Shown here: positions 23,954-52,600 of the stretch, piece after piece
Numbering within the stretch: the first letter of the stretch is position 1
How the letters are laid out: each line of letters opens with the position of its first letter
From: a virus
DNA length: 63,498 nt
Virus record (IMG/VR): IMGVR_UViG_3300025430_000019
Coordinates: 1 to 63,498 of that record
Reading direction: 5' to 3' (one strand)
The notes under the pieces: generated by a model
The model's input: the letters and a program-made list of their open reading frames with translations, nothing else
Databases searched by the model: none
What the model was told of the DNA's origin: nothing
Translations under genes and position numbers: made by a program

Positions 23954-23980
23954 GACATAGTAACAATACGTTATTTTGTC
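23954..23980. promoter_or_regulatory. 27-base dyad, copy 1
   Basis: GACATAGTAAC, spacer AATAC, GTTATTTTGTC. It has the same 11-5-11 geometry as the nine other copies and is the most divergent one. It lies upstream of the first early promoter. Confidence 0.7.
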
Positions 23981-24017
23981 CTTTTCTAAACTATTTTTGT
24001 TGTATTTATACAAACGA

Positions 24018-24046
24018 CGATAAATAGTGGGAAAGTGTGGTAATAT
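24018..24046 (+). promoter_or_regulatory. Early promoter 1
   Basis: -10 TAATAT (24041-24046), preceded by AGTGGGAAAGTGTGG. The core matches promoters at 25392 and 26198 in spacing and sequence, but the -35 region (CGATAA) is poor, so activation may be needed. An inverted repeat GTCGAT/ATCGAC (24053-24072) begins at the expected start of transcription. Confidence 0.6.
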
Positions 24047-24094
24047 CAACCCGTCGATTAATTCCGATCGACATAACTAACAGGAGATACTCAT

Positions 24095-24751
24095 ATGAGT
24101 ACAGAGAAAACAGTAGTTGAATCTACATTGACAGTCGATCAAACCGCATCCTTTGACGATATCGGTTCAACACTCGGCGCTAGTGATATCGACAGAGATA
24201 CAGCGATTGATCTATTCTTTAACCTAGTATTTGTCAATGGTAACGTTGACTATACATTATGGGTTGATGGTTCTAAGCGCATCATGAATGCTTATGCTAT
24301 TAAAAAAGGTATCAAGTGCATTATGAACGATGGAACATTAAACCCAACAGTTAAAACAATGTGGACAAGGTTTACAAAGGACGTAGCTGATAAACATGGT
24401 ATCGTAAAACCTACAAAGCCAACTACTGAGGCTAAAGCAAAAAGCGAGCAAAGGGCTAAAGCTGAAGCTAAACTCGAAGTACTCAAAGCTAAACCAGTAG
24501 AAGAGTTACAAGCTGAGTTAAAGTCTAAGCTGGCTAACCCTACTACTTCAAGTCTTAATGAGGCTAAAGCAATCACTAAAGCAATTGAGGCTAAAGCAAA
24601 GGATATCGAAAAGGCTGAGGATGAGGCTACGAAAACAGTCCGCAAATCGATCAAGGATATGCTAGCGAAAATTGATAGCTACTCTGATTTGGTTGATATT
24701 GAGACATACATTGTAGATATGATTAGCAACCATAGCCCTGCAACATTCTAA
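24095..24751 (+). CDS. Early protein, paralogue 1
   Basis: 218 residues, first gene of the early block. It shares with the gene at 25507-26142 the core TLNPTVKT.W.R.TK...D.HGIVKPTKPT (about 82-108) and a charged helical second half (KAKSEQRAKAEAKLEVLKAKPVEELQAELKSKL). The Lys-rich coil and the conserved TLNPTVKT core could suit a nucleic-acid-binding regulator, but no known domain is recognised. AGGAGA precedes the ATG. Flanked by 27-base dyads on both sides; it is a candidate for the protein that binds them. Confidence 0.7.
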   Translation: MSTEKTVVESTLTVDQTASFDDIGSTLGASDIDRDTAIDLFFNLVFVNGNVDYTLWVDGSKRIMNAYAIKKGIKCIMNDGTLNPTVKTMWTRFTKDVADKHGIVKPTKPTTEAKAKSEQRAKAEAKLEVLKAKPVEELQAELKSKLANPTTSSLNEAKAITKAIEAKAKDIEKAEDEATKTVRKSIKDMLAKIDSYSDLVDIETYIVDMISNHSPATF

Positions 24752-24761
24752 AATCTAGTAA

Positions 24762-24788
24762 GACAGAGTTACAAATTGTAACTTTGTC
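24762..24788. promoter_or_regulatory. 27-base dyad, copy 2
   Basis: GACAGAGTTAC, spacer AAATT, GTAACTTTGTC. It lies ten bases past the stop of paralogue 1 and just before a terminator. Confidence 0.8.
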
Positions 24789-24798
24789 CAATTAGCAA

Positions 24799-24821
24799 AG
24801 CCTCCCTAGGGAGGCTTTTTT
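24799..24821 (+). terminator. Rho-independent terminator after paralogue 1
   Basis: A perfect 18-base palindrome AGCCTCCCT/AGGGAGGCT is followed by TTTTTT. It separates paralogue 1 from the control region. Confidence 0.85.
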
Positions 24822-24928
24822 GTTGTCTCTGCTTTGCGTGTAACGCAAAGTGTAGCATAGATTTTCAGCAAAATCAAATTATTTTTAAAATTTTTTTAGG
24901 GAACTGGTTGTAAGCGACGAACTAGCCC

Positions 24929-24962
24929 CAATCATAGAAAATCCTTAGCACCACGTGATTAA
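24929..24962. repeat. 34-base direct repeat A
   Basis: It begins CAATCATAGAAAATCC and ends CACGTGATTAA; 31 of 34 bases match repeat B at 25131-25164. It contains the palindrome CACGTG and abuts dyad copy 3. Confidence 0.85.
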
Positions 24963-24989
24963 GACTTAGTTACAAAGTGTTACTTTGTC
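24963..24989. promoter_or_regulatory. 27-base dyad, copy 3
   Basis: GACTTAGTTAC, spacer AAAGT, GTTACTTTGTC. It directly follows direct repeat A. Confidence 0.8.
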
Positions 24990-25034
24990 CTGTAATGTTC
25001 GAAAAATCGAGCAATGTTCGCCGTATTGTTCCAC

Positions 25035-25255
25035 GTAAGTTGTTGATTTTAAAGCAAAGTTCTATTGTTCGTATTGTTCCGACAAAAAAAGTACTTTCTG
25101 AAATCTAAAACGGTCTTCGCATGGTGTAAGCAATCATAGAAAATCTTTAGCATCACGTGTTTAATTTCAGTTTCGAGATATAAATAATATAACAATATAA
25201 CATTAGAACACTATACTATTCAATACAATGTTCCTCAATGAAATCAACAACTTAC
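25035..25255. repeat. 15-base inverted repeat bracketing the iteron cluster
   Basis: GTAAGTTGTTGATTT at 25035-25049 and its exact complement AAATCAACAACTTAC at 25241-25255, 191 bases apart. Confidence 0.75.
25131..25164. repeat. 34-base direct repeat B
   Basis: It begins CAATCATAGAAAATCT and ends CACGTGTTTAA. It is a near copy of repeat A, 202 bases downstream, without an adjacent well-conserved dyad. Confidence 0.85.
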
Positions 25256-25391
25256 AAAACTTGATAATGTTCCAAGCACTAGAACATTACAGAACATTGC
25301 CACAAATTAATACTTCGTAACTAGTTTACACCTAACCCGTATTACATTACGTTTCAAATATCGCTGCCTAAATTTTAAGCAGGACAAACGC

Positions 25392-25420
25392 TTGACATGA
25401 GTGGGATTTTGTGGTAATAT
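25392..25420 (+). promoter_or_regulatory. Early promoter 2
   Basis: TTGACA (25392-25397), 17 bases, TAATAT (25415-25420). It is a near-consensus sigma70 promoter, inside a 40-base core shared with the promoter at 26198. An imperfect hairpin (CTTCG...GTTA GAAA TAACGAAG) starts at the expected transcript 5' end, and dyad copy 4 follows. Confidence 0.85.
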
Positions 25421-25451
25421 AGGGCTTCGCCCGTTAGAAATAACGAAGCGA

Positions 25452-25478
25452 GACAAAGTTACATTTCGTTACTTTGTC
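25452..25478. promoter_or_regulatory. 27-base dyad, copy 4
   Basis: GACAAAGTTAC, spacer ATTTC, GTTACTTTGTC. It lies 28 bases before the ATG of paralogue 2, inside its expected leader. Confidence 0.85.
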
Positions 25479-25506
25479 CTTAACCTAAACTTACTGGAGA
25501 GAAACC

Positions 25507-26142
25507 ATGTCATTAGAGAAAACAACAGTATCCGAAGCAGTTGCACAACTTACTGGGCAACAAGTTGCTATCTTCAAATCCCTCGGTGCAGTATTCGCAG
25601 AAAATGAGATGTCGCTTGATTCATCCCTTGATTCATTTAAAGACAACGTGATCATCGAATCGCAGGTTGATTATTATTTGTGGGAAGCAGGCTCACTTGA
25701 GTGGAAGCAGGGATATGCCGAGACAAAGCGAATTAAACTGTACATGACCGATAACACGCTTAACCCAACAGTCAAAACCGCATGGTCACGCTATACCAAA
25801 GCACTAGGTGATAGGCATGGTATCGTGAAGCCTACAAAGCCAACGAGTACTGCAAGCGCTAAGGCATCCCAACGTGCAGGGAACAAAGCGAAAGTGGACG
25901 AGTTGAAAACCAAATCGTTCGATGAACTTGAAGCATTGCTCAAGGGTAAACTAGTGCACCCAACAACGCAGTCCCTCAAGGAAGCAAAGCCCATTCAACA
26001 GGCAATCGAAGCCAAGAAACAAGATATTGTTAAGGCAGAGAATGAGGAGACAAAAGCAATTAAGAAAGCTCTAGTCGAGTGGATGAACGATCAGTCGTAC
26101 GAAACGCTTTACAACCTCGCCGTTAATTACGGTGCGATCTAA
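25507..26142 (+). CDS. Early protein, paralogue 2
   Basis: 211 residues, homologous to the gene at 24095-24751. The shared core is TLNPTVKTAWSRYTKALGDRHGIVKPTKPT (broken in this copy by no gaps), followed by a Lys/Glu-rich helical region (KAKVDELKTKSFDELEALLKGKLVHPTTQSLKEAKPIQQAIEAKKQDI). GGAGAG precedes the ATG. It has its own strong promoter and a dyad in the leader, consistent with autoregulation. No known family is recognised. Confidence 0.7.
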   Translation: MSLEKTTVSEAVAQLTGQQVAIFKSLGAVFAENEMSLDSSLDSFKDNVIIESQVDYYLWEAGSLEWKQGYAETKRIKLYMTDNTLNPTVKTAWSRYTKALGDRHGIVKPTKPTSTASAKASQRAGNKAKVDELKTKSFDELEALLKGKLVHPTTQSLKEAKPIQQAIEAKKQDIVKAENEETKAIKKALVEWMNDQSYETLYNLAVNYGAI

Positions 26143-26164
26143 GCAAATCCAACGCTCGGCAACT

Positions 26165-26178
26165 GCCCCTTCGGGGGC
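26165..26178 (+). terminator. Short hairpin, weak terminator
   Basis: GCCCC, loop TTCG, GGGGC, followed by TATTGTC. The stem is stable but the T tract is poor. It lies 22 bases past paralogue 2 and just before promoter 3. Confidence 0.5.
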
Positions 26179-26197
26179 TATTGTCGTGGACAAACGC

Positions 26198-26226
26198 TTG
26201 ACACAAGTGGGATTTTGTGGTATACT
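26198..26226 (+). promoter_or_regulatory. Early promoter 3
   Basis: TTGACA (26198-26203), 17 bases, TATACT (26221-26226). An 8-base perfect inverted repeat TACTGTAC/GTACAGTA (26223-26243) overlaps the -10 box and start site, as an operator would. Dyad copy 5 follows. It drives the small-gene operon from 26302. Confidence 0.88.
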
Positions 26227-26258
26227 GTACGTTCAGTACAGTAAATTATTTCAACAAC

Positions 26259-26285
26259 GACAAAGTTACATCTCGTTACTTTGTC
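26259..26285. promoter_or_regulatory. 27-base dyad, copy 5
   Basis: GACAAAGTTAC, spacer ATCTC, GTTACTTTGTC. It lies 16 bases before the ATG at 26302. Confidence 0.85.
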
Positions 26286-26301
26286 CCAACAGGAGAGCAT
26301 C

Positions 26302-26496
26302 ATGCAAGTAAAACTTAACCCGACAATCCAAGCACTTGATCGCAAGTTCAACGTGCTATATACAAAACAACTAAGCGACATTCAAGGCATGGCATACGGT
26401 GTGCGTGAGGATTTCGAGCAGGGCGATCGACGCATTACGTTTAATCAATGCTATAACAATGCAAGTAAAACTATCGCATGGTGGATGCCAGTATGA
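26302..26496 (+). CDS. Small early protein
   Basis: 64 residues from the ATG at 26302, chosen for AGGAG seven bases upstream; the frame extends upstream only through the dyad. The sequence (NPTIQALDRKFNVLYTKQLSDIQGMAYGVREDFEQGDRRITFNQCYNNASKTIAWWM) matches no family I know. First gene after promoter 3; its stop overlaps the next start (ATGA). Confidence 0.65.
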   Translation: MQVKLNPTIQALDRKFNVLYTKQLSDIQGMAYGVREDFEQGDRRITFNQCYNNASKTIAWWMPV

Positions 26497-26705
26497 GCGA
26501 CCATCCGCTTTGTACCCAATGCTTTAGCGACACCGTTTCCCCGAAGCGTGTGTTGCTAGGCTACACGGTATGCCTAGAGTGTGGCGAAGCAAACGCCGAG
26601 CGACAAGCTAGGTTGCGTACCGTAGTTCCGATGAACAAGTCCAACTATATATTAGTTAGCGACTTGTCACTTCTTAAACAACTTAACCCAAAGAGAACAA
26701 CATGA
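26493..26705 (+). CDS. Small zinc-ribbon protein, copy 1
   Basis: 70 residues from the ATG at 26493, which overlaps the upstream stop. CTQC and CLEC (residues about 7-10 and 27-30) form a four-cysteine zinc ribbon, similar to that in the gene at 26995-27204. Such small ribbons commonly bind nucleic acid or host proteins; the target is unknown. Its stop overlaps the next ATG. Confidence 0.65.
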   Translation: MSDHPLCTQCFSDTVSPKRVLLGYTVCLECGEANAERQARLRTVVPMNKSNYILVSDLSLLKQLNPKRTT

Positions 26706-26998
26706 CAATTAAACCACAGGCACTTAACATTGAGCGACTAATCAGCCTCGGTATGTACGAGACTAGGAATGAGAGCGCAGCACCCTCAGCATACGCTATG
26801 CTTGAGCAATGCGTGAGCGAAACGCTGGAAGAGATCGAGTCTATATCCGACGAGTTAATCTCTGTTCGCAAGAACGGCATCAGCCGTGACCACATCGACC
26901 TCGTAGTGTTCGATGCGCAATCAAGGCTAGCCAGACTAATGGTCAGACTGAACGACACAGTATCGGAATGCAACTATGTCCATGAGGGAGAAGTATGA
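26702..26998 (+). CDS. Small helical early protein
   Basis: 98 residues, acidic and helical (YAMLEQCVSETLEEIESISDELISVRKNG; FDAQSRLARLMVRLNDTVSE). It sits between the two zinc-ribbon paralogues with ATGA overlaps on both sides. That suggests the three products are made in fixed ratio. No family recognised. Confidence 0.6.
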   Translation: MTIKPQALNIERLISLGMYETRNESAAPSAYAMLEQCVSETLEEIESISDELISVRKNGISRDHIDLVVFDAQSRLARLMVRLNDTVSECNYVHEGEV

Positions 26999-27204
26999 GC
27001 CACTACCACTTACCGATATGCACGAACTGTTATAGCGTTCGTGTTCCACCACGCAATGCACATAGATTGCGTCCAGTTTGCGAGCGATGCGAAGACTCAA
27101 CTACGTTGATGCAAGACTCCAACTCCAAGCTATCCAAATGGTTAGCTACTCGTGTTGACTCACGACGCATCGTAACAACCAATACTAGGAAATCAAATGA
27201 TTGA
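26995..27204 (+). CDS. Small zinc-ribbon protein, copy 2
   Basis: 69 residues. CTNC and CERC (about 9-12 and 29-32) give a four-cysteine ribbon like that at 26493-26705 (CTNCYSVRVPPR versus CTQCFSDTVSPK). The C terminus is basic (RVDSRRIVTTNTRKSND). Likely a duplicated early regulator or host-interaction protein. Overlaps the next gene by eight bases. Confidence 0.65.
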   Translation: MSHYHLPICTNCYSVRVPPRNAHRLRPVCERCEDSTTLMQDSNSKLSKWLATRVDSRRIVTTNTRKSND

Positions 27205-27391
27205 AATATCAATGACCGAGTTATTATTATTTACGTGGGGCGCAGTCATGACTCTGCTCTATTTCAAAACCCAGACCGAATACAAGGAAGCTGAGTATCT
27301 GTTCAGTAAGACTTTGTATCTTATCGCAAAGAAGAAAGCCGTCCTCATTGACGACGGTGACACCTGCCACTTAAAGGGAATAGATGAATAA
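27197..27391 (+). CDS. Small membrane protein
   Basis: 64 residues. An N-terminal hydrophobic segment (about 7-22, TELLLFTWGAVMTLLYF) is followed by a charged cytoplasmic-looking tail. One membrane span is predicted by eye. The role is unknown; early small membrane proteins often alter the host envelope or exclude other phages. Confidence 0.55.
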   Translation: MIEISMTELLLFTWGAVMTLLYFKTQTEYKEAEYLFSKTLYLIAKKKAVLIDDGDTCHLKGIDE

Positions 27392-27494
27392 AGAAAAAGT
27401 ACAACACTTCGTGGTTAATGCTATGTTCACAATCGTGTACGTATTTTGCATTGCCGTTATGTTTATGGATGCTCTAGTATGGCGTCCTCACTAG
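27384..27494 (+). CDS. Tiny membrane protein
   Basis: 36 residues, read directly: MNKEKVQHFVVNAMFTIVYVFCIAVMFMDALVWRPH (given in two parts: MNKEKVQHFVVN and the hydrophobic AMFTIVYVFCIAVMFMDAL). The ATG overlaps the upstream gene by eight bases, and the TAG stop ends on the first base of dyad copy 6. One transmembrane helix. Coupling and composition support a real gene. Confidence 0.5.
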   Translation: MNKEKVQHFVVNAMFTIVYVFCIAVMFMDALVWRPH

Positions 27495-27520
27495 ACAAAG
27501 TTACATCCCGTAACTATGTC
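27494..27520. promoter_or_regulatory. 27-base dyad, copy 6
   Basis: GACAAAGTTAC, spacer ATCCC, GTAACTATGTC. It lies 20 bases before the ATG at 27541. No sigma70 promoter is visible immediately upstream. Confidence 0.85.
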
Positions 27521-27540
27521 CAACAACCCAAGGAAACAAA

Positions 27541-27963
27541 ATGAAAAGAAGTAACTCAAAGAAAGCAACGGTTCTCAAGATGTTAGCCAAGCATCACTCA
27601 CCGAAAGACGTAGCCAAGCAAGCTGGTTGCTCTATTGCATATGTGTATAGCGTGCGTCATGCTGAGAAGATTAAATCTAAGTTCTCTCCGCCGAAGCTAC
27701 CCAAGCCTACGATTGTTGAGAAGCATTGGATACCCGACGCAACAATACCCGAAGGCTACATTCAAATCTCAAATGCCGAGCACGATATGTTAATCAAGAA
27801 CGCATCCAAGGGTAGAGCATACGATAGTGTGCGTGAACGCAACGAAGAACTCGAAGCGCAGTATGCACTATGCGAAGAACAACTCCACATGGAACAATGC
27901 AAAGTGTTTGACCTCAAAGCTATCGTTAAATATTTAGAGGAGAAACTAAATGCCAACAACTAA
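27541..27963 (+). CDS. HTH plus coiled-coil protein
   Basis: 140 residues. Residues 8-40 (KATVLKMLAKHHSPKDVAKQAGCSIAYVYSVR) look like a helix-turn-helix: a helix, then SPKDVAKQAG, a turn, CSIAYVYSV recognition helix. The C terminus (about 95-138, RERNEELEAQYALCEEQLHMEQCKVFDLKAIVKYLEEKL) is a coiled coil that could dimerise it. A dimeric DNA-binding protein is what the 27-base dyads would need, and one dyad sits directly upstream. The link is inference. AAGGAAACAAA precedes the ATG. Confidence 0.65.
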   Translation: MKRSNSKKATVLKMLAKHHSPKDVAKQAGCSIAYVYSVRHAEKIKSKFSPPKLPKPTIVEKHWIPDATIPEGYIQISNAEHDMLIKNASKGRAYDSVRERNEELEAQYALCEEQLHMEQCKVFDLKAIVKYLEEKLNANN

Positions 27964-28924
27964 GATCAATCTTGGTCATGGAAACTGTGCTAGTATCCCG
28001 CAAATCTCATCGTATGCTCAAGCACAGGCACATTACAACTTTGTCAAACCGATACGTGGCGACGACCAAGTGCGACCGATTGGGGCACGACGCTTTAAGT
28101 GGTATACCATTAACAAGCGAGACTACATCGAAGATGCACCGATGTATAGCGCAACGCTAGTTAATACGAACTTAGTCGAGTACTACCACGACGGACGTAT
28201 TAGCATAACCACAGGTGGTTATAGATCAGTGACGAACAACTCATTCCTCAACTTTGTGTTGATGGGCTTGGGCAATGTCGTATCTGTTAGTGGCAAATGG
28301 TATTGGAAACCACATCGTAGCGACAAGTACTATTACTTTCCGATACAACGAAACCATTGGTTGCACCTCGACGAGCAAGGCATACCGACTAATCCAGTAC
28401 AAGAGTACAAGAACTTGATCAACCGCAAAGCAATGAACGCAATACGAAAGAAGTATATGCCGATCATAGAATACGGTCGTCTGATGTTAACGGCTGACCA
28501 AGTTGTACCGTTAAGAATTGTTCATGAGTTACAGGCTGAGTTAAAAAATGTCTTGTCGTTCAAGGTAATGTCTAAACGTATGTATTTTTGGAATACTGAG
28601 TCTAAAGAGCAATACAAGAATGGTATTGCCAAATCCATTGAGTATCTTGACAAGGCGCTTGATACCAACGACTTAGATATGTTCTATAACATAACAATGC
28701 TTATGGCTAATCAGTATGGGCATTACTCATACGTTAGAGAAACAACTACTTGTTCACCCAAGGAGTTCAGAGCAGGATTCGACTTGTACCTCAGGGAAAT
28801 ATATTGGCAAGATGTATTCATCCAAGAGGAACAACCGATAGGCAAGGCGTTTTATGATGCGTACGCATCGTTTCTCGCCAATAAGAAGGACACAGTTACA
28901 GTTCGTAACTATGTCGTTAAGTAA
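27950..28924 (+). CDS. Uncharacterised early protein
   Basis: 324 residues. No family recognised. It is rich in Tyr/Asn/Arg, with segments such as GARRFKWYTINKRDY, YHDGRISITTGGYRSVTNNSFLNFVL and KWYWKPHRSDKYYYFPI. These resemble a beta domain at the N-terminal side, with a helical C-terminal half. Similar proteins sit next to MoxR/VWA genes in other environmental phages, to my recollection. The last codons contain dyad copy 7. GAGGAGAAAC precedes the ATG, which overlaps the upstream gene by 14 bases. Confidence 0.55.
   Translation: MPTTKINLGHGNCASIPQISSYAQAQAHYNFVKPIRGDDQVRPIGARRFKWYTINKRDYIEDAPMYSATLVNTNLVEYYHDGRISITTGGYRSVTNNSFLNFVLMGLGNVVSVSGKWYWKPHRSDKYYYFPIQRNHWLHLDEQGIPTNPVQEYKNLINRKAMNAIRKKYMPIIEYGRLMLTADQVVPLRIVHELQAELKNVLSFKVMSKRMYFWNTESKEQYKNGIAKSIEYLDKALDTNDLDMFYNITMLMANQYGHYSYVRETTTCSPKEFRAGFDLYLREIYWQDVFIQEEQPIGKAFYDAYASFLANKKDTVTVRNYVVK
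28889..28915. promoter_or_regulatory. 27-base dyad, copy 7 (inside coding sequence)
   Basis: GACACAGTTAC, spacer AGTTC, GTAACTATGTC. It lies wholly within the last codons of the 27950-28924 gene and 42 bases before the MoxR gene start. Confidence 0.8.
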
Positions 28925-28957
28925 GTTAGTTAATCATCCACAGAAAAGGAAATCAAA

Positions 28958-30052
28958 ATGTCAGAAGTATTCTTAAACAAAACCGCATCCCTCAAAGAAG
29001 CAGAGGACTTGATCGTAGCTTGTGGCGCAGATGCTACCATTCACCTAGTAGGCGAGCCTGGTGTGGGCAAAACATCTATGTTCAAAAATATTGTACAGAG
29101 AACGGATCATAAAGGGATTTACATCGACGCACCAAACATCGAGCTTGGCGAGTTAGGTATACCAATCCCTGATCACGCAACAAAAACAACTCGTATGTAT
29201 CCAAACGAGCAATGGGGTTTTCATCTCAACGAGCCACTTGTTATCTTTATTGACGAGTTCACCAAAGGTCATCAAGCAGTTCAGAATATGTTGCATCCTA
29301 TGCTCAACGAACCACGTATGATCATGGGCATACCGTTACATCCCGAAACTATTGTTGTAACCGCAGGTAACTTTACAGGCGACGGAGTAGGCGACAACAT
29401 GAAGGCGCATAGCCGTAACCGAGTATCAGTTGTTGCAGTACGCAAGCCACACGCAGGCTTTAACGTAGATGGTTCCGTTGATGAAGACTCATGGGGCGCA
29501 TGGGCAATCAAGCATGACATAGCCCCCGAGATTCTTGCATGGGTTAAGGAAACACCACATACTCTTGCATCATATCTTGACCCTGCACAAAGCGGTAACA
29601 AGTACATCTTCAATCCGAAGGAAGCACAGAAGTCTTTTGTTAGTCCACGTTCCCTTGCTAGAGCATCGCATATTTTGAAACGCAGATCCCAAAGCACCGA
29701 AAACGCAATCATTACTGCGCTCGAAGGTACGATAGGCGCACCTGCATCACGTGATCTTATGGCATACGTTAAGGTGGCTGACAGCTTACCGACGTGGGAA
29801 TCCATAGTGCGTGACCCTGACGTAGCGACTGTTCCGTCATCACCTGCGGCTCTGTGTTTACTTGCGTTTAGCGCCGTTCAACGCGTCGACCGAGACTCAA
29901 TCGGTAAGTTCTTTACGTATCTCAAACGTACACCGAAAGAGTTGCAGTCCGTGTTCTGTTTGACTGGCATGGCTAACGCTGACAAGAAGAAGCTATTCAT
30001 GACTAGCCAATCGTTCATTGACTGGATGCGTACCAATCAATACTTATTCTAA
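28958..30052 (+). CDS. MoxR-type AAA+ ATPase
   Basis: 364 residues. Walker A is GEPGVGKT at 32-39 and Walker B VIFIDE at 95-100, followed by FTKGHQAVQNMLHPMLNEPRMIMGIPLHPETIVVTAGN (sensor 1) and a probable arginine region. The order fits MoxR/CobS-like AAA+ ATPases, which work with a VWA-domain partner; the next gene is such a partner. N4-like phages carry a comparable pair. The substrate is unknown; remodelling of a host or replication complex is plausible. AAAGGAAATC precedes the ATG. Confidence 0.85.
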   Translation: MSEVFLNKTASLKEAEDLIVACGADATIHLVGEPGVGKTSMFKNIVQRTDHKGIYIDAPNIELGELGIPIPDHATKTTRMYPNEQWGFHLNEPLVIFIDEFTKGHQAVQNMLHPMLNEPRMIMGIPLHPETIVVTAGNFTGDGVGDNMKAHSRNRVSVVAVRKPHAGFNVDGSVDEDSWGAWAIKHDIAPEILAWVKETPHTLASYLDPAQSGNKYIFNPKEAQKSFVSPRSLARASHILKRRSQSTENAIITALEGTIGAPASRDLMAYVKVADSLPTWESIVRDPDVATVPSSPAALCLLAFSAVQRVDRDSIGKFFTYLKRTPKELQSVFCLTGMANADKKKLFMTSQSFIDWMRTNQYLF

Positions 30053-30056
30053 ACAC

Positions 30057-30083
30057 GACAGAGTAACACTTTGTAACTTTGTC
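30057..30083. promoter_or_regulatory. 27-base dyad, copy 8
   Basis: GACAGAGTAAC, spacer ACTTT, GTAACTTTGTC. It lies 18 bases before the VWA gene start, between the two genes of the MoxR/VWA pair. Confidence 0.85.
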
Positions 30084-30101
30084 TCAACCAAGGAAATATA
30101 A

Positions 30102-31295
30102 ATGAGTAACTTAACTGCAGAACAACGCATCGAAAGATGCCACGTTCAATTAATGAAACACCCAAGCTTTTGCTTGTTCTCAGGTTTGTTTATGGTGGGT
30201 AAGGTTAGTGTCGATGACAAGACACCGACTGCTAAAACCAACGGTCTTGACGTAACATACGGCAGAGATTTTGTTGGCTCACTCAACGACAAACAACTAG
30301 GCTTTCTTATTCTCCACGAGAATATGCACAAAGCGTATCGTCACCTGGTCGTTTGGAAGACTCTATACAAGCGTAATAGATGGCTTGCCAATGCAGCGTG
30401 CGACTACGTTATTAACTTACAACTCATGGACTATGACCCACATGGACAGGACATCGAGTTCCCAACCGATAAGGATGGCAACCAGATTGGTCTCGTTGAT
30501 GAGAAGTATCGGGGCATGGATGCACACCAAGTGTTTCTTAAATTACTTGAGGAACATGGCGACGTTCAACCCCCCGATGGTGACGAAGGACTCGACGATC
30601 ATGACTGGGAAAGTGCGGAGGAGATGACCGACAAGGAGAAAGAAGAAGCGGCGAAGGAAATCGAAGATGCTCTACGTCAGGGTCAGATACTTGTTGGCAA
30701 GATGAAGGGTAACGTATCACGTGAGGTTCAAGACTTACTTACGCCGAAGGTAGATTGGAAAGAAGCATTGCGTGACTTTATCAAATCAACAACTGCAGGT
30801 AAAGACCAGACGACATGGCGACGACTGCACAAGCGGTACATCGGTATGGATATTGTTATGCCTAGCACATTCGACGAGAAAGTCGGACCTATTACTGTGG
30901 CAATAGATACGTCAGGAAGTATCGGCCACGAGGAACTCGCTCAATTCTTATCCGAGGTTAAGCTAATCTGTGAAGAAGTCAGACCTGAGAAGTTGGACAT
31001 ACTGTACTGGGATACTCGCGTAGCAGGGCATGAGGTTTACTCCGATGCCGAACTTGCTAATGTTGTTTACGTAACCGAAGCCAAGGGCGGTGGTGGTACT
31101 GAACCTTCGTGTGTACCTAAGTATATGCGCAAGCACAACATGACTCCCGAGTGTCTTATTATGCTAACAGATGGTTACATTGGCGACCAGACTCGCAACG
31201 ACTGGTCAATCAATTCTCCAATCATGTGGTGTATCAAAGGCAACAACCACTTCGACAACGCTAGCGTGACAGGAAAGGTTGTTCATGTCGAGTGA
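30102..31295 (+). CDS. VWA-domain protein with metallopeptidase-like N terminus
   Basis: 397 residues. Residues 72-76 are HENMH in LILHENMHKAYRH, an HExxH zinc-site pattern as in DUF2201-type putative metallopeptidase domains. The middle is acidic (DGDEGLDDHDWESAEEMTDKEKEEAAKEIED). The C-terminal VWA domain has the MIDAS motif DTSGS near 268-272 and LTDGYIGD near 360. It is the expected partner of the MoxR ATPase upstream. Whether the HExxH site is active cannot be judged here. Confidence 0.8.
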   Translation: MSNLTAEQRIERCHVQLMKHPSFCLFSGLFMVGKVSVDDKTPTAKTNGLDVTYGRDFVGSLNDKQLGFLILHENMHKAYRHLVVWKTLYKRNRWLANAACDYVINLQLMDYDPHGQDIEFPTDKDGNQIGLVDEKYRGMDAHQVFLKLLEEHGDVQPPDGDEGLDDHDWESAEEMTDKEKEEAAKEIEDALRQGQILVGKMKGNVSREVQDLLTPKVDWKEALRDFIKSTTAGKDQTTWRRLHKRYIGMDIVMPSTFDEKVGPITVAIDTSGSIGHEELAQFLSEVKLICEEVRPEKLDILYWDTRVAGHEVYSDAELANVVYVTEAKGGGGTEPSCVPKYMRKHNMTPECLIMLTDGYIGDQTRNDWSINSPIMWCIKGNNHFDNASVTGKVVHVE

Positions 31296-31509
31296 GATAA
31301 AAGATTGGTGTGTAATTCGGGTCTATCACCGTAGGCTCGAAACAGTCAGCAACGACTTTGTGCGGTACGAAGCCGCCAACGTATTCAATGCTCCACCACA
31401 CAAGCGTATGGGTGTGGAGTACTTGACCAAAGAAGAAGCAGAAGCAATGGCTAAATTTTTAAACTTTATTGAGGAATCAAATGAAAGAAACGATAGTACC
31501 CCAAGGTAG
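31285..31509 (+). CDS. Small early protein
   Basis: 74 residues from the ATG at 31285; AGGAAAGG lies upstream within the VWA gene, overlapped by 11 bases. The sequence (IKDWCVIRVYHRRLETVSNDFVRYEAANVFNAPPHKRMGVEYLTKEEAEAMAKFLNF) suggests a small alpha/beta fold. No family recognised. Overlaps the next gene by 29 bases. Confidence 0.55.
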   Translation: MSSEIKDWCVIRVYHRRLETVSNDFVRYEAANVFNAPPHKRMGVEYLTKEEAEAMAKFLNFIEESNERNDSTPR

Positions 31510-31666
31510 GAAGTTAGACAACAAAGTAAACATAAGTCTTAACCGTGAGACCGTTGAACAGTTGGCGAAGTTCAAAGACAGACTCGGAGAAGTGCTGGGT
31601 GTAGAGCTATCCTATGCTCAAGCTATACAGTACTTAATTAAACATCAACCAACCAAGACAGAGTAA
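31481..31666 (+). CDS. Ribbon-helix-helix-like small protein
   Basis: 61 residues from the ATG at 31481 (GAGGAATCAA upstream). The pattern KVNISLNRETVEQLAKFKDRLGEVLGVELSYAQAIQYLIKH fits an Arc/CopG-like fold: a short strand, a helix, a turn and a second helix. RHH dimers bind palindromic DNA, so this is another candidate for the dyads. Its TAA stop lies inside dyad copy 9, which would couple gene end and operator. Confidence 0.5.
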   Translation: MKETIVPQGRKLDNKVNISLNRETVEQLAKFKDRLGEVLGVELSYAQAIQYLIKHQPTKTE

Positions 31667-31683
31667 CAGTTTGTAACTTTGTC
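31657..31683. promoter_or_regulatory. 27-base dyad, copy 9
   Basis: GACAGAGTAAC, spacer AGTTT, GTAACTTTGTC. The left arm contains the stop codon of the RHH-like gene. It lies 26 bases before the ATG at 31710. Confidence 0.85.
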
Positions 31684-31709
31684 CATCTTTAATACACAGG
31701 AGAATTCAT

Positions 31710-32579
31710 ATGACAACAGAAAACAGTATTTCAATCGCATCATCATCAATGCTAGTAGAGTTATCAATCAGTACTTGGACTGCACGTAAGTTAGACAAGC
31801 GTGTATCAGCCGAGGTTGATCTCGCAAAGGGTACTAAGACACAGGCAGGTAACTACAACAAGAATCTGCTTGCAGGTACAGGGGTGTTGGAAAACATTAC
31901 CAAGTACGCATCCAATGCGAGAGCATGGCATATTAAACAAACATTACCTTGGTCTGACAGTGGCTTGCGTTTGTTACCGATGACTAACTTCATTGCGTAC
32001 AAGGAACAACTCAATCAGCTAGAACAGAACTACGACGCTTTAGTTTCTAAGTTCCTGATAGCCTACCCTGAGTTGGTATCAGCAGCTGCGTTTCAATTAG
32101 GTTCACTCTTTAATAGAGACGAGTACCCTGAGTCACACAAGATTGCAACCAAGTTCAAGTTCTCTTACAACTTCCTTCCAGTACCAATGGCAGGTGACTT
32201 CCGTATCGACATCAACGAAGAAGCGAAGAACGAGATCATCGAGTCATGCCGTAAGATGTATGACGAGCGTCTTAACAACGCAATGCGTGATGCGTGGACT
32301 AGGTTGCACACTTGCCTCATTCACTTGAGCGAGAGGTTAGCCCCAACCGAACAAGGTGAACGTAAGATATTCAGAGACACATTAGTAGAGAATACGAAAG
32401 AGTTACTGGAGTTATTAAAACATTTTAATCTCACACATGACCCGAAGCTTGATCAGGCTAGGCAGGAATTGCAACAAGCGTTAGGCGCACACACGGCTGA
32501 CACATTGCGTGACATGGAGATGGCACGTGAGACAGTCAAGGCTAGAGTCGATGAGATTCTTGGTAAATTTAATTGGTAA
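31710..32579 (+). CDS. Conserved early protein of the MoxR/VWA module
   Basis: 289 residues, mainly helical (YKEQLNQLEQNYDALVSKFLIAYPELVSAAAFQLGSLFNRDEYPE; MRDAWTRLHTCLIHLSERL). The beginning SSSMLVELSISTWTARKLDKRVS is a pattern I associate with phage proteins encoded beside MoxR/CobS-like ATPases (possibly the DUF3150 type; not certain). It would be a third component of that complex. CAGGAGAATTCAT precedes the ATG, with a dyad just upstream. Confidence 0.6.
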   Translation: MTTENSISIASSSMLVELSISTWTARKLDKRVSAEVDLAKGTKTQAGNYNKNLLAGTGVLENITKYASNARAWHIKQTLPWSDSGLRLLPMTNFIAYKEQLNQLEQNYDALVSKFLIAYPELVSAAAFQLGSLFNRDEYPESHKIATKFKFSYNFLPVPMAGDFRIDINEEAKNEIIESCRKMYDERLNNAMRDAWTRLHTCLIHLSERLAPTEQGERKIFRDTLVENTKELLELLKHFNLTHDPKLDQARQELQQALGAHTADTLRDMEMARETVKARVDEILGKFNW

Positions 32580-32588
32580 GGAAATATT

Positions 32589-33458
32589 ATGTTAACAATA
32601 AACAGAGATCAACTAAACATAGACAAACGGCAGACACCGATACATCCTGATTTGGAGAAGTTTGCAACGCAAGTATCATTCGCTAAACCTTTGTGTACAT
32701 TTATAGCATTGAAAGATTGTTTTAAGAACGTATACCATGAAGGGAATTGGAGTGACTATATATACAAGCTACATATCTACCAAAACGGTGATAAGGTAGG
32801 CGAAGTATTTGTAGATACCCATTACAAGCAAGGTACTAACGAGCGTGAATCAATCTACGGCATCAAGTCTTTTCGCATAGAAAAAAGCCGAGGTGATCGT
32901 AACTCAACTACATCCAGAGATATGAAGGTAGCCCTACGTATTGCTAAGAAAACGCTTGTTGCGAGAGAGCTGGAAGAAATGCGTAGTGTCATTGACGACA
33001 AGGTACGTGGTTGCATCGGTAATATAATGTACCGCACGACAGGTATGTTGACGTACACTATGGATATAAACCATGAAGCCCAGTTGTATGCAATATCAGC
33101 GTATCAAGCTAGGAAGAAAGGCGAAACAACTGTTACTGTACCTGCGCATCCCGTGACTGTAACCGCTAGCAAGCTTAACGACCACACCATTGCGTGCGAT
33201 TTGTATATGGAAATATATGCACTTAAACAGTATCTCAAAGCTAACACAGGATACGGCATTAAAGTAATGGCTGACGACAGTATCATAATGCTAACGTATA
33301 GTACGGGCGAATTGTCTCGCTTAAGTTCTTATCATGAGTTACCCGATAGTATTCAGTCTAAGTTTGCGATGTTCAAGGTACTCAAGGATGACGAGCCGTA
33401 TGCGCATCTTGGTTGTAAATTTAACGAGAATATATTTTATATAGCCCCCGATACTTGA
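32589..33458 (+). CDS. Uncharacterised early protein
   Basis: 289 residues. The N-terminal part is alpha/beta (FIALKDCFKNVYHEGNWSDYIYKLHIYQNGDKVGEVFVDTHY). A central basic helix follows (TTSRDMKVALRIAKKTLVARELEEMRSVIDDKVRGC). No known domain is recognised. It follows the 31710-32579 gene by nine bases with AAGGAAATATT as ribosome site. Probably in the same operon and pathway. Confidence 0.55.
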   Translation: MLTINRDQLNIDKRQTPIHPDLEKFATQVSFAKPLCTFIALKDCFKNVYHEGNWSDYIYKLHIYQNGDKVGEVFVDTHYKQGTNERESIYGIKSFRIEKSRGDRNSTTSRDMKVALRIAKKTLVARELEEMRSVIDDKVRGCIGNIMYRTTGMLTYTMDINHEAQLYAISAYQARKKGETTVTVPAHPVTVTASKLNDHTIACDLYMEIYALKQYLKANTGYGIKVMADDSIIMLTYSTGELSRLSSYHELPDSIQSKFAMFKVLKDDEPYAHLGCKFNENIFYIAPDT

Positions 33459-33588
33459 TACAATACACACAGAATCCTCCTGTGGATTTCTCTGGACTGT
33501 GATACGTTGACCTAACAGATGTTTGCGTAACTAAAACAAGTCTCTCCTCACCGCAAGTAGGATGCGGAATCTGTTTAGCCTACACACT

Positions 33589-33613
33589 AAGCCCTCCTCG
33601 TGAGGGCTTTTTT
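33589..33613 (+). terminator. Rho-independent terminator
   Basis: AAGCCCTC, loop CTCGT, GAGGGCTT, with the T run continuing to 33613 (TTTTTT). It ends the operon that begins at promoter 3. Confidence 0.88.
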
Positions 33614-33617
33614 ATTG

Positions 33618-33644
33618 GACAAAGTTACATATTGTTACTTTGTC
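33618..33644. promoter_or_regulatory. 27-base dyad, copy 10
   Basis: GACAAAGTTAC, spacer ATATT, GTTACTTTGTC. It lies upstream of the promoter at 33673, as copy 1 does for promoter 1. No further copy is seen to the right. Confidence 0.85.
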
Positions 33645-33672: not shown

Positions 33673-33701
33673 TTGCAAAACCCTAGATTTAGGACTATAC
33701 T
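33673..33701 (+). promoter_or_regulatory. Sigma70 promoter for replication genes
   Basis: TTGCAA (33673-33678), 17 bases, TATACT (33696-33701). It lacks the AGTGGG core of early promoters 1-3. It drives the VRR-NUC, polymerase and downstream genes. Confidence 0.75.
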
Positions 33702-46661: not shown

Positions 46662-46688
46662 CCCTCACCCTCGTGGTGGGGGTTTTTT
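46662..46688 (+). terminator. Terminator of the early block
   Basis: CCCTCACC, loop CTCGT, GGTGGGGG, then TTTTTT (46683-46688). The eight-pair stem includes one T-G pair. It lies at the convergence point and touches the stop codon of the opposing 2142-residue gene. No comparable T tract serves the leftward direction. Confidence 0.88.
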
Positions 46689-49600
46689 ATTCTTCATTTG
46701 CATAATTACGCCATCCTTCAAGTTGGGGTATCATTCTTTTATCTATACCCATACCACCTGTGATGTTAGAAAGCGCTCTATTTTTATAGCGAGTTTTAAT
46801 AGAATTTGTTAACGCATCTGGTGTAATGGCTTTGCCCGGATTAGTTTGGCTGAAATGCACGATCTTAGCAATGACTTTATCCATCATATATGTATCACCA
46901 GAATCTAAAGCAATAAAGAAGGCATTTAACAAATCATTATGTCTAGCAATAATTTCTTGTTCTGCATTTTTCATTTCAATATTTGCTTTTTGTGCTTGCG
47001 CGATTTTATCGGGCGTAAAACCAAGCATCTGTGCCAAAGCAAGGCGAGCAGGAACTTCTTCCATTAAAGTGTCACCTTTCATAGTAAGAGCTTGACCTTC
47101 TGAAAGATAGCGTAATCCAGTCATGACGTTTTTAATAGCAGATGGCATAGCGGTTTCAATAGCACGTTCTGTATGGCCTTGATTAAAACGATCTAATGCT
47201 TCAGCATAAGTTACTAACGCGCCAGCAGATGGGCCAAGCAAACTCATCATAGTATTTTGTAACGTAGTAAGGTCATCCTTACCTTTACGTACATCTTGGA
47301 ACCATAAGTCAGGTAAATTAGTGCTCATACGGTCTGCAAAGTTCAGTCCGCTGACTGTAGACAACGCGCCACGAGATAGTATTTCACCCGTAAACCCACC
47401 TAAATGTTTAAAGCACCAGTTCTTAAACCAATTTTCGGCATCAAACGGTTCGTCTGAATCACCAAATGCTGCATGAAAAGCTGAAGCAATGCCAGAGAAT
47501 ATAAACCAAAATGGTAAACCCGTCATGCCAGATGTAAGAAACGCCATGCCCATCATACCTAAGAACTGATCACGTGCTTCACGTTTAATACTTTCAAGTT
47601 CTTTAATCTTAGCTTTCATCAATTCTTCTTTATGCGGCGAGTTACGCATCTCTCGCTCATATGCAATAAGTTCAGCTTGCATACCATCGCCCAAAGATTT
47701 TTGAAGTGTTCTAAACATTAGCACAGTCATCTGTTGCGGATACATTTTAAATTGCAACAAAATATTACGGTAGTTACCGCGGAAATATCTTGGTTTATTG
47801 GTAGTGTTGTAGTTAAACAAAGTCTTTTTAACTAACGCATCGGCTTCTTGTATGGCTGTTTGGTAAGCTTGTTCTGCGGTATAACGTTGTTTACCATCAT
47901 GAGTTTTAGCATCTAACGCTTTATTATAGGCTAATTCAAATGTTGCCATAAACGTTGTCTCACGCATGTATTTTTCAGATGCGTGAAACGGTAAACTTGC
48001 GTAGTACATTATTTTGTTCCATCGACCAGTGTATTGGTTTGATGGTTTTTCACCGATTTGCGCAGCTTCATGCGATAGCGTAACATCAATAGTTCCGCGT
48101 CTAACGCCGTCTTGGTATACGTCGGCATAAGTCTTACCTATAGAATTACCGTTTTTATCTTTAACATCCATGCCTTCCATATTGGCTCTGGCTAGTGATA
48201 AAAACTCATATCTGCCTGATGTTTCATTTACAAATCCTGTTCCACCAAGCATACGATTAAACTTTGCAAACGCACTCGCTGTATTTTTTAACCCATACCT
48301 AGCATTTGCAGCAGGCGCCCATACGCCTCCAACACCAAGCAAGTTAATCATAAACGATGCTGGCGCAGTTAAGAAGTTTATAAAGCCAAATTGATTTAAC
48401 GCAGTGACAATTCCACTTTGTTTTGGTGGGTTAAGAATAGCAGTCTTAAGGTTTAACTCAAGTTCATGTACGTAATCTCTATACTTTAATGCCTCTCTAG
48501 CAGGCAGGCTTTTTAAACGTACTTGTGCTGAACGAAGGTCGGTGAATAGCTGTGGTAAATGCTCAAACCTAGAACGCTGATATGCCATACGTAAACGAGA
48601 CACTTCAAATGCACGAAGCATATCAATACTTGCACCAGGTATATTTTCACGGTGCATAAACATCTTACGAATACTTTCGTTTGGCATTAGCTCTAAATAC
48701 ATTTGGCCGAGTTGATCTTTAACTTGGTCGCGTAACGCCCCAATAGGGTCAGCTAATACTTTAGCATCTGAGCTACCTAAAATATCTTCCGTAGATTTAT
48801 CAACTAGAGATTTTAAACTTTCTAAATGCGCCCAGTCACTTAAATTACTATTAAGAATTTCGCTGAAATTATTTCCTGCTTGAATATCGCCACTTTCTTC
48901 AACTTGCCTAAGTACTTCTTCATCTGATGTGCCTTTTATAAAAGTACTTTTACCTTTTTCCTTTTTGATTAAGCGCTCTAATTCTTGTTCATAGGCATCA
49001 TCACGAGCACCGGCAGTTTCAAATTGCTGGAAAGTTTTACTTTTGCCTTTGCCTGTTTGCAACCAGAATTCGCCAAAACGTTTAAGCGGAAAGTAAATTT
49101 TAAGCGCGTCTTTAGCTATATTGTTTTTTAACTTAACTAATTCATCGTTAATTTCTTTTTCTGAAAGACCTTCACTTTTTAGTCTAGCATGAGTACGTTC
49201 TGCCTGGATTGCTATGTACTCATCCATACGTCTTTTATAAAAATCACGCACTTCACGATAAATTTTTAACGCTGTTCTACCGTCTTCAGTGCCGTCAACC
49301 ATTTTGTTCCAGGCATCTTTAAACCGTTTATCAACGTTGTGCCAGTTTGCGGCATCGTGTGCAGGGCCAGTAGTATCGGCTTCAATTTGATCAATCGTAG
49401 CATTAAGCATTACTTCATGCAACTGTTGAGCTTTATCAGGATTACTTTGAATTAATTGACTCCAAAGTTTAATTGCAGTATCGCCTTCCGCAAGTATTTT
49501 ATTGCGGGTATAAATCATTGCATCAACTTCTTTAACGTAATCTTTGAACTGTGGGATATTATCTCCAACAAGATCTGATAATTGGTCTAGTGTTAAAGCA

Positions 49601-52600
49601 CCAAGCAAAGCTCTGCGGTATTCTTCACGAACACTAGCTAAGTTAGAAACAAATTTACGTTTATTAACTTTGCTCCAAGGAGTATGGCTTCTTATTAAAT
49701 CTCCAATCGTGCCAAGCATACCTGTACGCTCAGCTGTATTAGCTCTAAATTTACCTTTTTTAGCCGCTATACTTTTTGCTATTTTTGGTTGTTTTTCGTC
49801 TTCAAACTTAGAAGTATTATCTAAAGATATAGAGTTTTGCGGTATAGCTGTACCCGGATTAAATGTATTAACGTTAGTTGTGCTTTCTTCTCTAGCAGAA
49901 AATAGTACATCTGTATTAGCCATAGTTTGGAACAATACATTATCTACACCAATTAATTTAGATATGTATTGAATAAACTTAGACCAAGTAGATTGGTTAG
50001 TTTTGTTTTCAGCATAAAGACTACGAAGTATTTTTTGAAAATCTCTATTGCTAAAAGCTTCAGCTATAAATTCATGTAAATTAAGAAGTCCATACTGTTC
50101 TGCATGTGGAGTTCCTTTAAGTTGTTTAACTGTGTTATGGTACAACGCTACTAAATTGTAATAAGCTCTACGTTGTTCTGGGTTTAACTTTTCAGGGTGC
50201 AACATTAAATCTGATACAGCAGCATGTGTAGACTCGTGCATTAGCACATAATTTGTTGTAACACCGCCATTTAAAGAATTATTAAGGGCAATAGACCCTT
50301 CGTAATAAAACCCAGCTGCAGCTAAAGACCCAACAGCTTCGTCTAATGATTTGTATGCAACTTTCGCTTGTTCCATCAAGCTTTTATTAGGCACTCTAAT
50401 TCTGCCGTCCATTAATCTGTTATAAGCTTCGGCCTTCAACAAAATTGGATTTATACTTGGGTCAAAGTTAGCTTCATTAAAATAACGATCCCATATGTGG
50501 TGGTAGTTAAGTTGCAGATAGGCTTCTACTTGGTTTCGTTGTACAGCCGTATGCGATAAAAAGTTTTCTAATACTTTATTAGTTATGTCATAGCCAATAT
50601 TTACAGTAAAGTTTAACCCAAGTAAACGATCAGCCAATTTGCTAAAGTACTCACCTCCGTAACGCACTATGCCTTTTAATGCGCCTCTAAAATCATTTGA
50701 ACGAATAGCATCATCAACTACTGGATGAACTGTAGCCTCTAACGTATTAATATCAGCATTTTGAACTTTAGGGCTACTAGACTTACTTTTCTTTTCTTTT
50801 TTATCTAAGCCTTTCTTTAGCTGCTGTTCTGTCTTACCCATTGCAATACGTGCTGGGTGGTTAACAGGCAGTTGAGGTTTTAATTCTTGCAGCTTTTTAG
50901 TAACCTCAGCTTTAGCTTCACGATCTATATTTTCGCCCGATCCAATAGCAACCGCTTGGTTAAACAAGTCATGGTATTGTTGAACAATAGGGTTGTTTTG
51001 TAAGTCGGCAGGGAGTTCTTCTATTCTTGGTGTTTGGCTTATGTGGCGAAGCTTTTCTTCTGTGCTTGACATAGGCTCAAGTTTTTTAGCTTCTTGTTCA
51101 GTTTCAACTTGTTCTGGCGTTGGCTCACCAAGTTCTTCTTCGTCTTGCTTACGCTGTTCTTCTTCAAGTTGAGATTGCTCTAATAACTTATCAGCTATTT
51201 CTTCATCAGTTGGTTCTTGATTTTGATTAAGTTCTTGGTCTAATTCATCTTGTAATGCAGCTTGTTCTTCTTCGCTAGGCGTTTCTTTGGTTTGTTCTTG
51301 GTTTGGCACACGAACCATGTAATCTACACGATCTTCAAACCCATTACGTGCATACCAGTCTTTTAGTTGTTCTTGATTAAGTCCGCCTAAAGAAGCATCG
51401 GGCTGCGCCGCAGGTACAAGAACTAAAGTTTTATCGTTAGTATCAGCCCAATTAGTAATTGCGCTTAATAATTTAGTACCCGCACCTTTATTTCTATTAG
51501 CTACATCCATGCCTGTTATCATGGTAGCGCCAATAAGATCATCAGATAAATCATTATCTTCGTCTAGCACTTTAAACCCGGCAGTAGCAAGTGGTTCTTG
51601 CCCTTTTGTAACTGAAGGTAGATACGCTCCTCTATCATTTACTCTAGCTGGTTTGGATTCAAAGGTTTCTTGTTCTTGCGTTTCTTTTGGTTGCAATGCC
51701 CCAACTTGTTCTGTATTTAGTTCAGCAGTGCTTGGTTGCGTTCCTCTTCCAGTTTGATCAGCAGGCTGTTCACTTCCCACCACATTACTTTGGGCATTTG
51801 TTTCAAGTCCTGGCTCAGTTCCTCGTTGGGAAGTAATCCCCTCAGATGTAGGAATGCCTGGCTGAGTAACTCCGGTGTTATCTCCAGTATTTCCTGCTGC
51901 ATTTTGTTCCTCCTGTATTTTATTACGGGCTTCAATATGTTTATCAATGTAATTGCTTAACTCTTCTTTAGTTGGTTCTTTGCCGTACTGTGCAACAAAA
52001 TCAGGTTTAACAATATCAGCAATCTGATTGCGTATTCTATTATTTGCAAGGTATCCTCGTATTCCACCAAGACCCGACATAGGAATGCCTTGTACAAATG
52101 TACCGACAACAGTCTCAATGTACTCCTTCATGGCATCAAGATCGGCGGTATCAAGACCTGCACCGAAACGTTCTGCCCATTGTTGTGCTAGCTCAGGTGG
52201 TATTTCTTTAGCTGTTGAAGCTGCGTATACTTTAGCAACGTCATATAACAAATTTTTACCTGCCGCGTCTAAACCACTTAACGCACCAAGACCAAATCTT
52301 TCTGAAAGAAAATCGGCGCCTGCATGGATTGCCATTGCTGGCGCAAGTTTAGTAAAGTTAAGTTCTTGGGCTATGTCTGCATTAGGATTTTTATTTTGTA
52401 TTTCTTCAATAGCACGGGAACCTGGTTCGCCAACACCGTGGAATGCAGCTTGCGTTGCCATACCAAGCATACTGCCTTTACTAAGCATAAGCTTTTTAGC
52501 GGAGTCAGCTACAAACTTAATGCCAGCTTTTGTGCCTTCTTTTTCAGCAACTTCTTCGGCTAACTTTTTAACACCTTGTTTAACTAATTGTTTTTCAGCA

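Follow-up and report, generated by a model that had tools for sequence, protein, structure and literature searches.

The window analysed here is the complete 63,498-nucleotide IMG/VR virus record IMGVR_UViG_3300025430_000019. It is divided between a leftward block encoding terminase, portal and capsid and a rightward block in which copies of a 27-base inverted repeat (dyad) are interspersed with genes for a MoxR-type AAA ATPase, a DUF2201/VWA protein and a DUF3150-like protein. Gene content and sigma70-like promoters suggest that the dyad block is expressed early. We describe these dyads, their counterparts in related phages, and a protein family, encoded in the window at 24095 and 25507, that we favour on sequence evidence as their putative binder. 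Features are given in window coordinates and lie on the + strand unless noted.

We scanned both strands of the whole window for GACAAAGTWAC-N5-GTWACTTTGTC with up to three mismatches. The ten matches were the same ten 27-mers, with the same starts and 11-5-11 geometry, that a first-pass annotation of the sequence had listed, whereas dinucleotide shuffles (n = 100) averaged 0.00 matches. That annotation had also placed every copy within about 9.7 kb, in agreement with our scan: outside 23.9–33.7 kb the best match had five mismatches (49648) and the next had seven. A looser scan added a decayed eleventh dyad with four mismatches (26954..26980), located inside the 3′ end of open reading frame (ORF) 26702 and followed after 14 bases by ATG 26995; the relative L050 has an intact site at the matching junction.

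Copy 1 (23954..23980) separates the leftward late block from the first early gene, copy 2 (24762..24788) is followed by an intrinsic terminator (24797..24818), and copy 3 (24963..24989) lies within a long non-coding region. Copies 4–9 each precede an ATG by 16–42 bases, most of them directly after the stop codon of the preceding gene: copy 4 (25452..25478; 28 bases to ATG 25507), copy 5 (26259..26285; 16 bases to ATG 26302), copy 6 (27494..27520; 20 bases to ATG 27541), copy 7 (28889..28915, overlapping the end of ORF 27950; 42 bases to ATG 28958), copy 8 (30057..30083; 18 bases to ATG 30102) and copy 9 (31657..31683; 26 bases to ATG 31710). The number of strict copies so placed is therefore six, not the seven first counted. 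Copy 10 (33618..33644) has an intrinsic terminator on one side (33589..33609), as several relatives do in the same place, and a sigma70-like promoter on the other (TTGCAA-N17-TATACT, 33673..33701). Promoter-like sequences were found downstream of both copies 1 and 10, as had been claimed. Copies 4 and 5 are each preceded by a strong sigma70-like promoter (TTGACA-N17-TAATAT, 25392..25420, and TTGACA-N17-TATACT, 26198..26226, respectively) whose expected start site is about 25 bases upstream of the dyad, and both copies are therefore expected in the transcript. Spacer base 1 is A in 10/10 window dyads and spacer base 5 is C or T, so that all ten point one way relative to transcription; with 3/10 sites reversed in L050, we rejected strict spacer polarity as a general rule.

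The first early gene (24095..24751; 218 amino acids) encodes the candidate dyad-binding protein, and a paralogue (25507..26142; 211 amino acids) encodes a second candidate. These are followed by genes for a helix-turn-helix (HTH)-like protein with a C-terminal coiled coil (27541..27963), the MoxR-type AAA ATPase (28958..30052), a DUF2201 putative metallopeptidase with a VWA-like domain (30102..31295), a ribbon-helix-helix (RHH)-like protein (31469..31666, ATG 31481) and a DUF3150-like protein with a weak Pfam match (31710..32579). The MoxR, VWA and DUF3150 genes are conserved backbone genes. Beyond the dyad block lie genes for a Hjc/VRR-like nuclease, a family-A DNA polymerase (PolA), an exonuclease, a SNF2-type helicase and a primase-helicase.

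Relatives were collected from IMG/VR by motif pattern search and by VWA protein search. Near-identical contigs were removed in part, some loci have few sites, and IMG/VR records may be fragments. The pattern search found the same motif in 11 stretches. Most of these match the window almost exactly; one is about 70% identical and had six sites in the part that was retrieved first. The VWA search found 69 relatives, and a de novo search revealed dispersed dyads of other sequence in most relatives that reach the region, such that about 40 IMG/VR relatives have comparable dispersed dyads at the same gene junctions. Classes were assigned by inspection of the de novo search and named by the inner core of the dyad. 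At least 12 classes were distinguished, including TTAC (the window and L050), GTCA, AAGG, CTTAG, GCGACAT, TCGACA, TCGAA, TCAAG, CAGACA, TCTGAC, CCATA and ATCGACA, and within each class all sites have changed together. Many classes have a common plan, in which outer bases, ACA, an A/T bridge and the inner core are followed by a spacer and the mirror image.

The positions of the sites are conserved along with this plan. Sites recur before the first early gene, the HTH-type gene, MoxR, VWA and DUF3150, and in a terminator–promoter gap about 2 kb past the DUF3150 site. Across loci of six classes, 126/204 sites have a Shine–Dalgarno sequence and ATG within 60 bases downstream, compared with 15% of random positions and 8/204 on the other strand. 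Four long GTCA-class relatives have every site in one stretch of about 10 kb, with 0 matches to a reversed-pattern control. The scan of relatives and of the late block that the first-pass annotation had proposed thus left its claim of a confined array standing, with sites conserved in place. In the main clade, MoxR, VWA, DUF3150 and PolA, which lie beside or between the sites, remain about 60–85% identical; the sites have therefore changed individually yet in concert, while the genes among them stayed stable. A tree of the MoxR + VWA backbone rejected GTCA as a single clade (approximately unbiased test, p = 1.7e-56), and CTTAG was also split.

The 24095/25507 family is present in 40 loci besides the window, and its gene is usually first in the early block. 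In the 41 family genes tested, a dyad lies near or inside the start in 32. We compared candidate binders by the partial correlation of gene distance with dyad-class difference at given backbone distance; for the 24095 family, 33 of the 38 classed relatives could be used, the other five loci ending before the region. The 24095 family gave the highest value (partial r = 0.746), followed by the RHH gene 31469 (0.689, in the 26 loci with the gene), and then more weakly by ORF 27950 (0.35) and the neighbour at 23116 (0.33). MoxR, VWA, DUF3150, PolA, nuclease and HTH genes were all at or below 0.17. The backbone sisters L036 (GTCA) and L032 (TCGAA) have 24095-family proteins that are 18% identical, compared with 37% for L036 and L026, which are both GTCA and distant in backbone. 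In the 24095-family tree, TTAC, AAGG, GTCA and CTTAG proteins lie on one well supported side. Three candidates had been named at the outset, of which the 24095/25507 paralogues are favoured here by class tracking. The HTH protein 27541 was rejected, with a partial r of 0.04 and an N-terminal part that differs between the window and L050 despite their common class, and the RHH protein is the weaker of the remaining two.

AlphaFold predicted an all-helical 24095 protein with a mean pLDDT (predicted local distance difference test score) of 91, or 95 for the N-domain alone, including a helix at residues 84–101. This is the candidate recognition helix (PTVKTMWTRFTKDVADKH; codons 84–101, 24344..24397). 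When 180 alignment columns were scanned for association with class while controlling for overall distance, columns 84, 87 and 88 ranked in the top eight and 91 in the top ten, and all four class-linked columns lie on this predicted helix. A link between the helix and dyad class is likely. In the first set of sequences, and with a single exception, Glu91 accompanied cores that contain CGA, and Arg92 those that contain AC. We fixed both rules in writing before testing them on new contigs. The Arg92–AC rule held in L130, L125 and L126. L122, which has Lys and the core CGGA, is compatible with it, as is L137 with its few sites; the distant L146 does not follow it. The Glu91–CGA rule held in L125 and L126. 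From these sequences a simple residue-to-base code is not established. Similarity of the 24095 family to the MecI recognition helix was not significant (E 0.36).

The dyads could alternatively be DNA operators of another phage protein, chiefly the RHH protein 31469, acting alone or with the 24095 family, for example with the RHH protein contacting the outer GACA and the 24095 protein the inner core. Dimeric operator binding is typical of RHH proteins, and, besides the correlation of this protein with class, its N-terminal GR..D stretch is common to the TTAC, AAGG and GTCA phages, which also have the outer GACA in common. The gene was not found, however, in CTTAG, GCGACAT, CAGACA and TCTGAC phages, which nonetheless have dyads, and some of them have too little room for it between VWA and DUF3150. 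Furthermore, its predicted strand (KVNVSINPETM type) is nearly constant over many classes, and L050 (TTAC) and L052 (AAGG) have similar RHH proteins despite their different classes. We therefore rejected RHH as the sole binder, its gene being missing in several dyad classes, and consider operators for another phage protein, with RHH alone or in partnership, to be unlikely.

Another possibility is that the dyads act in RNA, as 5′ leader hairpins that RNase III, a translational regulator or an antitermination factor would recognise. Transcription is expected to cover most sites, which lie 14–42 bases before start codons, copy 2 precedes a terminator, and A/T positions in the GTCA class are biased relative to transcription towards A on the coding strand (AA 42 versus TT 11). 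The variation within sites argues otherwise. In GTCA, the largest class with 78 different sites, inner position 12/20 reads TA in 48, GA in 16, TC in 12 and GC in 2; the half-sites therefore vary independently, and single changes go uncompensated. One A/T position in this class is complementary in 12/78 sites against 28.1 expected by shuffling, and two in CTTAG are complementary in 1/28 and 3/28 against 11.5 and 12.7 expected (P < 1e-4 by shuffling, an optimistic value given that the sites in a class come from related phages). Versions with AA..AA and with TT..TT both occur. These are the same DNA site read from either strand but different RNA loops, which argues against an RNA stem. Copies 1 and 10, moreover, lie upstream of promoters, and Rfam contained no match to the dyads. 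The compensatory pairing in the arms that would mark a structured RNA operator or an RNase III site was not found, and from these patterns an RNA stem is disfavoured; we regard action in RNA as improbable. The initial preference for a dimeric DNA-binding protein over an RNA hairpin is supported by both the uncompensated half-site variation and the anti-complementary A/T positions, and RNase III sites, named at that stage as an alternative, are disfavoured. The broken palindromy itself may reflect hairpin avoidance, a complex that is asymmetric (a heterodimer, for instance), or the two combined. Anti-complementarity is strongest in two classes, each with two paralogues of the candidate protein, a pattern that would fit a heterodimer and that we offer as a lead only.

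A role in replication, partition or genome organisation rather than transcription is quite improbable. It would suit the many sites within one 10 kb region beside replication genes, and the iteron-like non-coding stretch at 24980–25300, but placement is tied to gene starts, with about one site per gene junction in place of a single-locus cluster, and no ParA-type gene was found in seven long records. The remaining alternative from the first-pass annotation, in which a virion-carried phage RNA polymerase would use the dyads as promoters or as hairpin recognition elements, has in its favour the dispersed, similar elements before genes and two very large virion-type proteins (2142 and 1050 amino acids), yet it is very unlikely given the strong sigma70-like promoters directly upstream of copies 4 and 5 and large late proteins in which no polymerase domain was recognised (Pfam and PHROGs, with a PDB sequence search for the largest; a PF00940 search had no match, as was also true of its positive control).

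We therefore return to operators of the 24095/25507 family. It seems to us probable, if not strongly so, that the dyads, which are mostly transcribed, serve as double-stranded DNA operators at which a DNA-binding protein of the phage, most likely one of this family, represses early genes. In our preferred reading, a repressor that also controls its own gene works through stoperator-like sites, and its specificity diversifies among phages in which no lysogeny genes were recognised. The sites and their placement, the concerted changes of class, the uncompensated half-site variation and the association of protein with class support it. We infer binding, dimerisation, repression, roadblock, autoregulation and competition, as follows. 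A 24095-family protein would be made first from the early block, and a dimer, or a heterodimer of the 24095/25507 paralogues, would bind the two half-sites, each with ACA on the outside, a class-specific core on the inside and an A/T-rich bridge between them. As it accumulates, the protein would lower expression of its own gene and of the early genes that follow, blocking initiation at copies 1 and 10, which lie next to promoters, and elongation at copies 4–9, which lie between genes in an operon, as stoperators do. Specificity would have diversified among relatives at all sites together, such that phages of the same class could shut off each other's early genes.

Several results weigh against this reading. 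Fold searches of the PDB and BFVD with the whole 24095-family protein and with its N-domain returned no match. In held-out testing, L146 and the second copy of L130 contradicted the Glu91–CGA rule, which was doubtful in L122 and L137. First copies from GTCA-class phages account for eight of the nine family genes without a nearby dyad. Counting class changes by parsimony failed to separate the gene trees (excess 0–3), and the protein–class link therefore rests on distances, a sequence-based measure that is incompletely corrected for shared ancestry and that RHH satisfies nearly as well where its gene exists. Finally, PF00589, PF00239 and PF13614 (integrase, resolvase and ParA) were absent, with working controls, from seven long records, which may be incomplete; with no lysogeny genes found, the usual reason for a repressor is missing.

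Comparable arrays are known from temperate phages. In the Streptomyces phage phiC31, a single repressor binds more than a dozen conserved inverted repeats (CIRs) distributed among early intergenic regions; we know of no series of co-switching CIR classes. The closest parallel in layout is with Cluster A mycobacteriophages (L5, Bxb1 and relatives), in which many copies of one operator are likewise dispersed. These stoperators lie mostly away from promoters and have a group-specific consensus, with a repressor that diverged alongside (PMC6550527), and in our phages operator consensus and candidate regulator also appear, by association, to diversify together among relatives. Cluster A sites are 13-bp and asymmetric, however, and their repressor binds as a monomer that has two DNA-binding domains (PMC9283540, PMC6550527), whereas the dyad described here has 27 bp and two half-sites. 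The 24095 family also had no significant Pfam, PHROGs or PDB match, so that no homology to the Cluster A immunity repressors was found, and the integrase and partition genes of temperate phages were not found in the seven long records. The SPbeta element SPBRE is, like the dyad, repeated in phage intergenic regions; it came to light through sequence analysis, and its binding by the master repressor MrpR (YopR) was demonstrated afterwards (PMC10516654). SPBRE differs in being a 15-bp motif at promoters of a temperate phage, and MrpR in having a tyrosine-recombinase fold, compared with an all-helical 24095 model that has no fold match and no PF00589 match. Owing to these differences in site geometry, protein family and lysogeny genes, the dyad system cannot be filed with either stoperators or SPBRE/MrpR.

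The best-known examples of dispersed operators whose specificity changes come from temperate phages, in which they determine superinfection immunity. The comparable layout described here belongs to a widespread environmental phage group in which no lysogeny genes were found, and involves a protein family unlike known repressors. The comparisons point to a genome-wide switch with a 'password' that varies from one related phage to another, apparently tracking a fast-changing first early protein. We propose tentatively, and with more doubt than confidence, that the 24095 family is a novel group of DNA-binding phage regulators whose all-helical fold has not been described before, and that protein and dispersed operators co-switch specificity in phages that lack lysogeny genes, giving at least a dozen 'immunity-like' groups of similar lytic phages. 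If true, these phages would offer a ready-made set of proteins, each paired with its own DNA site, from which to read a recognition code, and one would have to ask why a lytic phage should maintain such a system and let it diversify.

Dyads of other kinds were seen in more distant phages. The Planktothrix phage Pag-Yong1 (OL906435.1; L089), a distant relative with MoxR and VWA genes, has about 25–30 GGTTCAGNCTGAACC dyads, many right before start codons; unlike those of the window, they extend across late as well as early genes, and no 24095-family gene was detectable. Pag-Yong1 encodes the paralogous proteins UMO76074 and UMO76054, the latter adjoining a MoxR-type gene; we considered both as 24095-family members and detected no link. 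The more distant MoxR-bearing loci L144, L145, L155 and L157 have compact dyads (CCTAACA..TGTTAGG, GTTCTTATTTAAGAAC) and no detected 24095-family gene, and may be served by another regulator. In the stretches of DSL-LC04 and HTVC027P that were searched, there was no convincing dyad family and no 24095 homologue.

The window has no close DNA relative among GenBank phages. Among bacterial and archaeal genomes it matched a single 5.3 kb contig (CAIQQL010000047.1; L159) from an uncultured archaeon bin from lake sediment, with a 92% identical VWA fragment and two TTAC-class dyads; it is probably a phage contig that was mis-binned. In the gene before ORF 27950 (27541–27963 in the window; also L032, L039, L050 and L052), the coiled-coil C-terminus is kept (..YLEGK type) and the N-terminal, DNA-binding-like part varies between relatives, as if exchanged.

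The non-coding region around copy 3 contains further repeats. At 24980–25300 there are ten TGTTC/GAACA words compared with about 0.9 expected by length, some of them in AATGTTC and CGTATTGTTCC repeats, and this iteron-like stretch is a possible replication origin. A 34-base repeat, CAATCATAGAAAATCCTTAGCACCACGTGATTAA, is present in two copies (91%) at 24929–24962 and 25131–25164, and a sequence similar to it precedes a dyad in L039. A GGGAACTGGTTGTAAGCGACGCACTAGCC-like non-coding sequence at 24900–24930 is conserved right before a dyad in L040, L048, L049 and L050. In the late block, the 2142-amino-acid protein (46687–53115, − strand) has an LPD39 (large polyvalent protein) domain and a C-terminus similar to DarB-like PHROG proteins, and is possibly injected together with the DNA.

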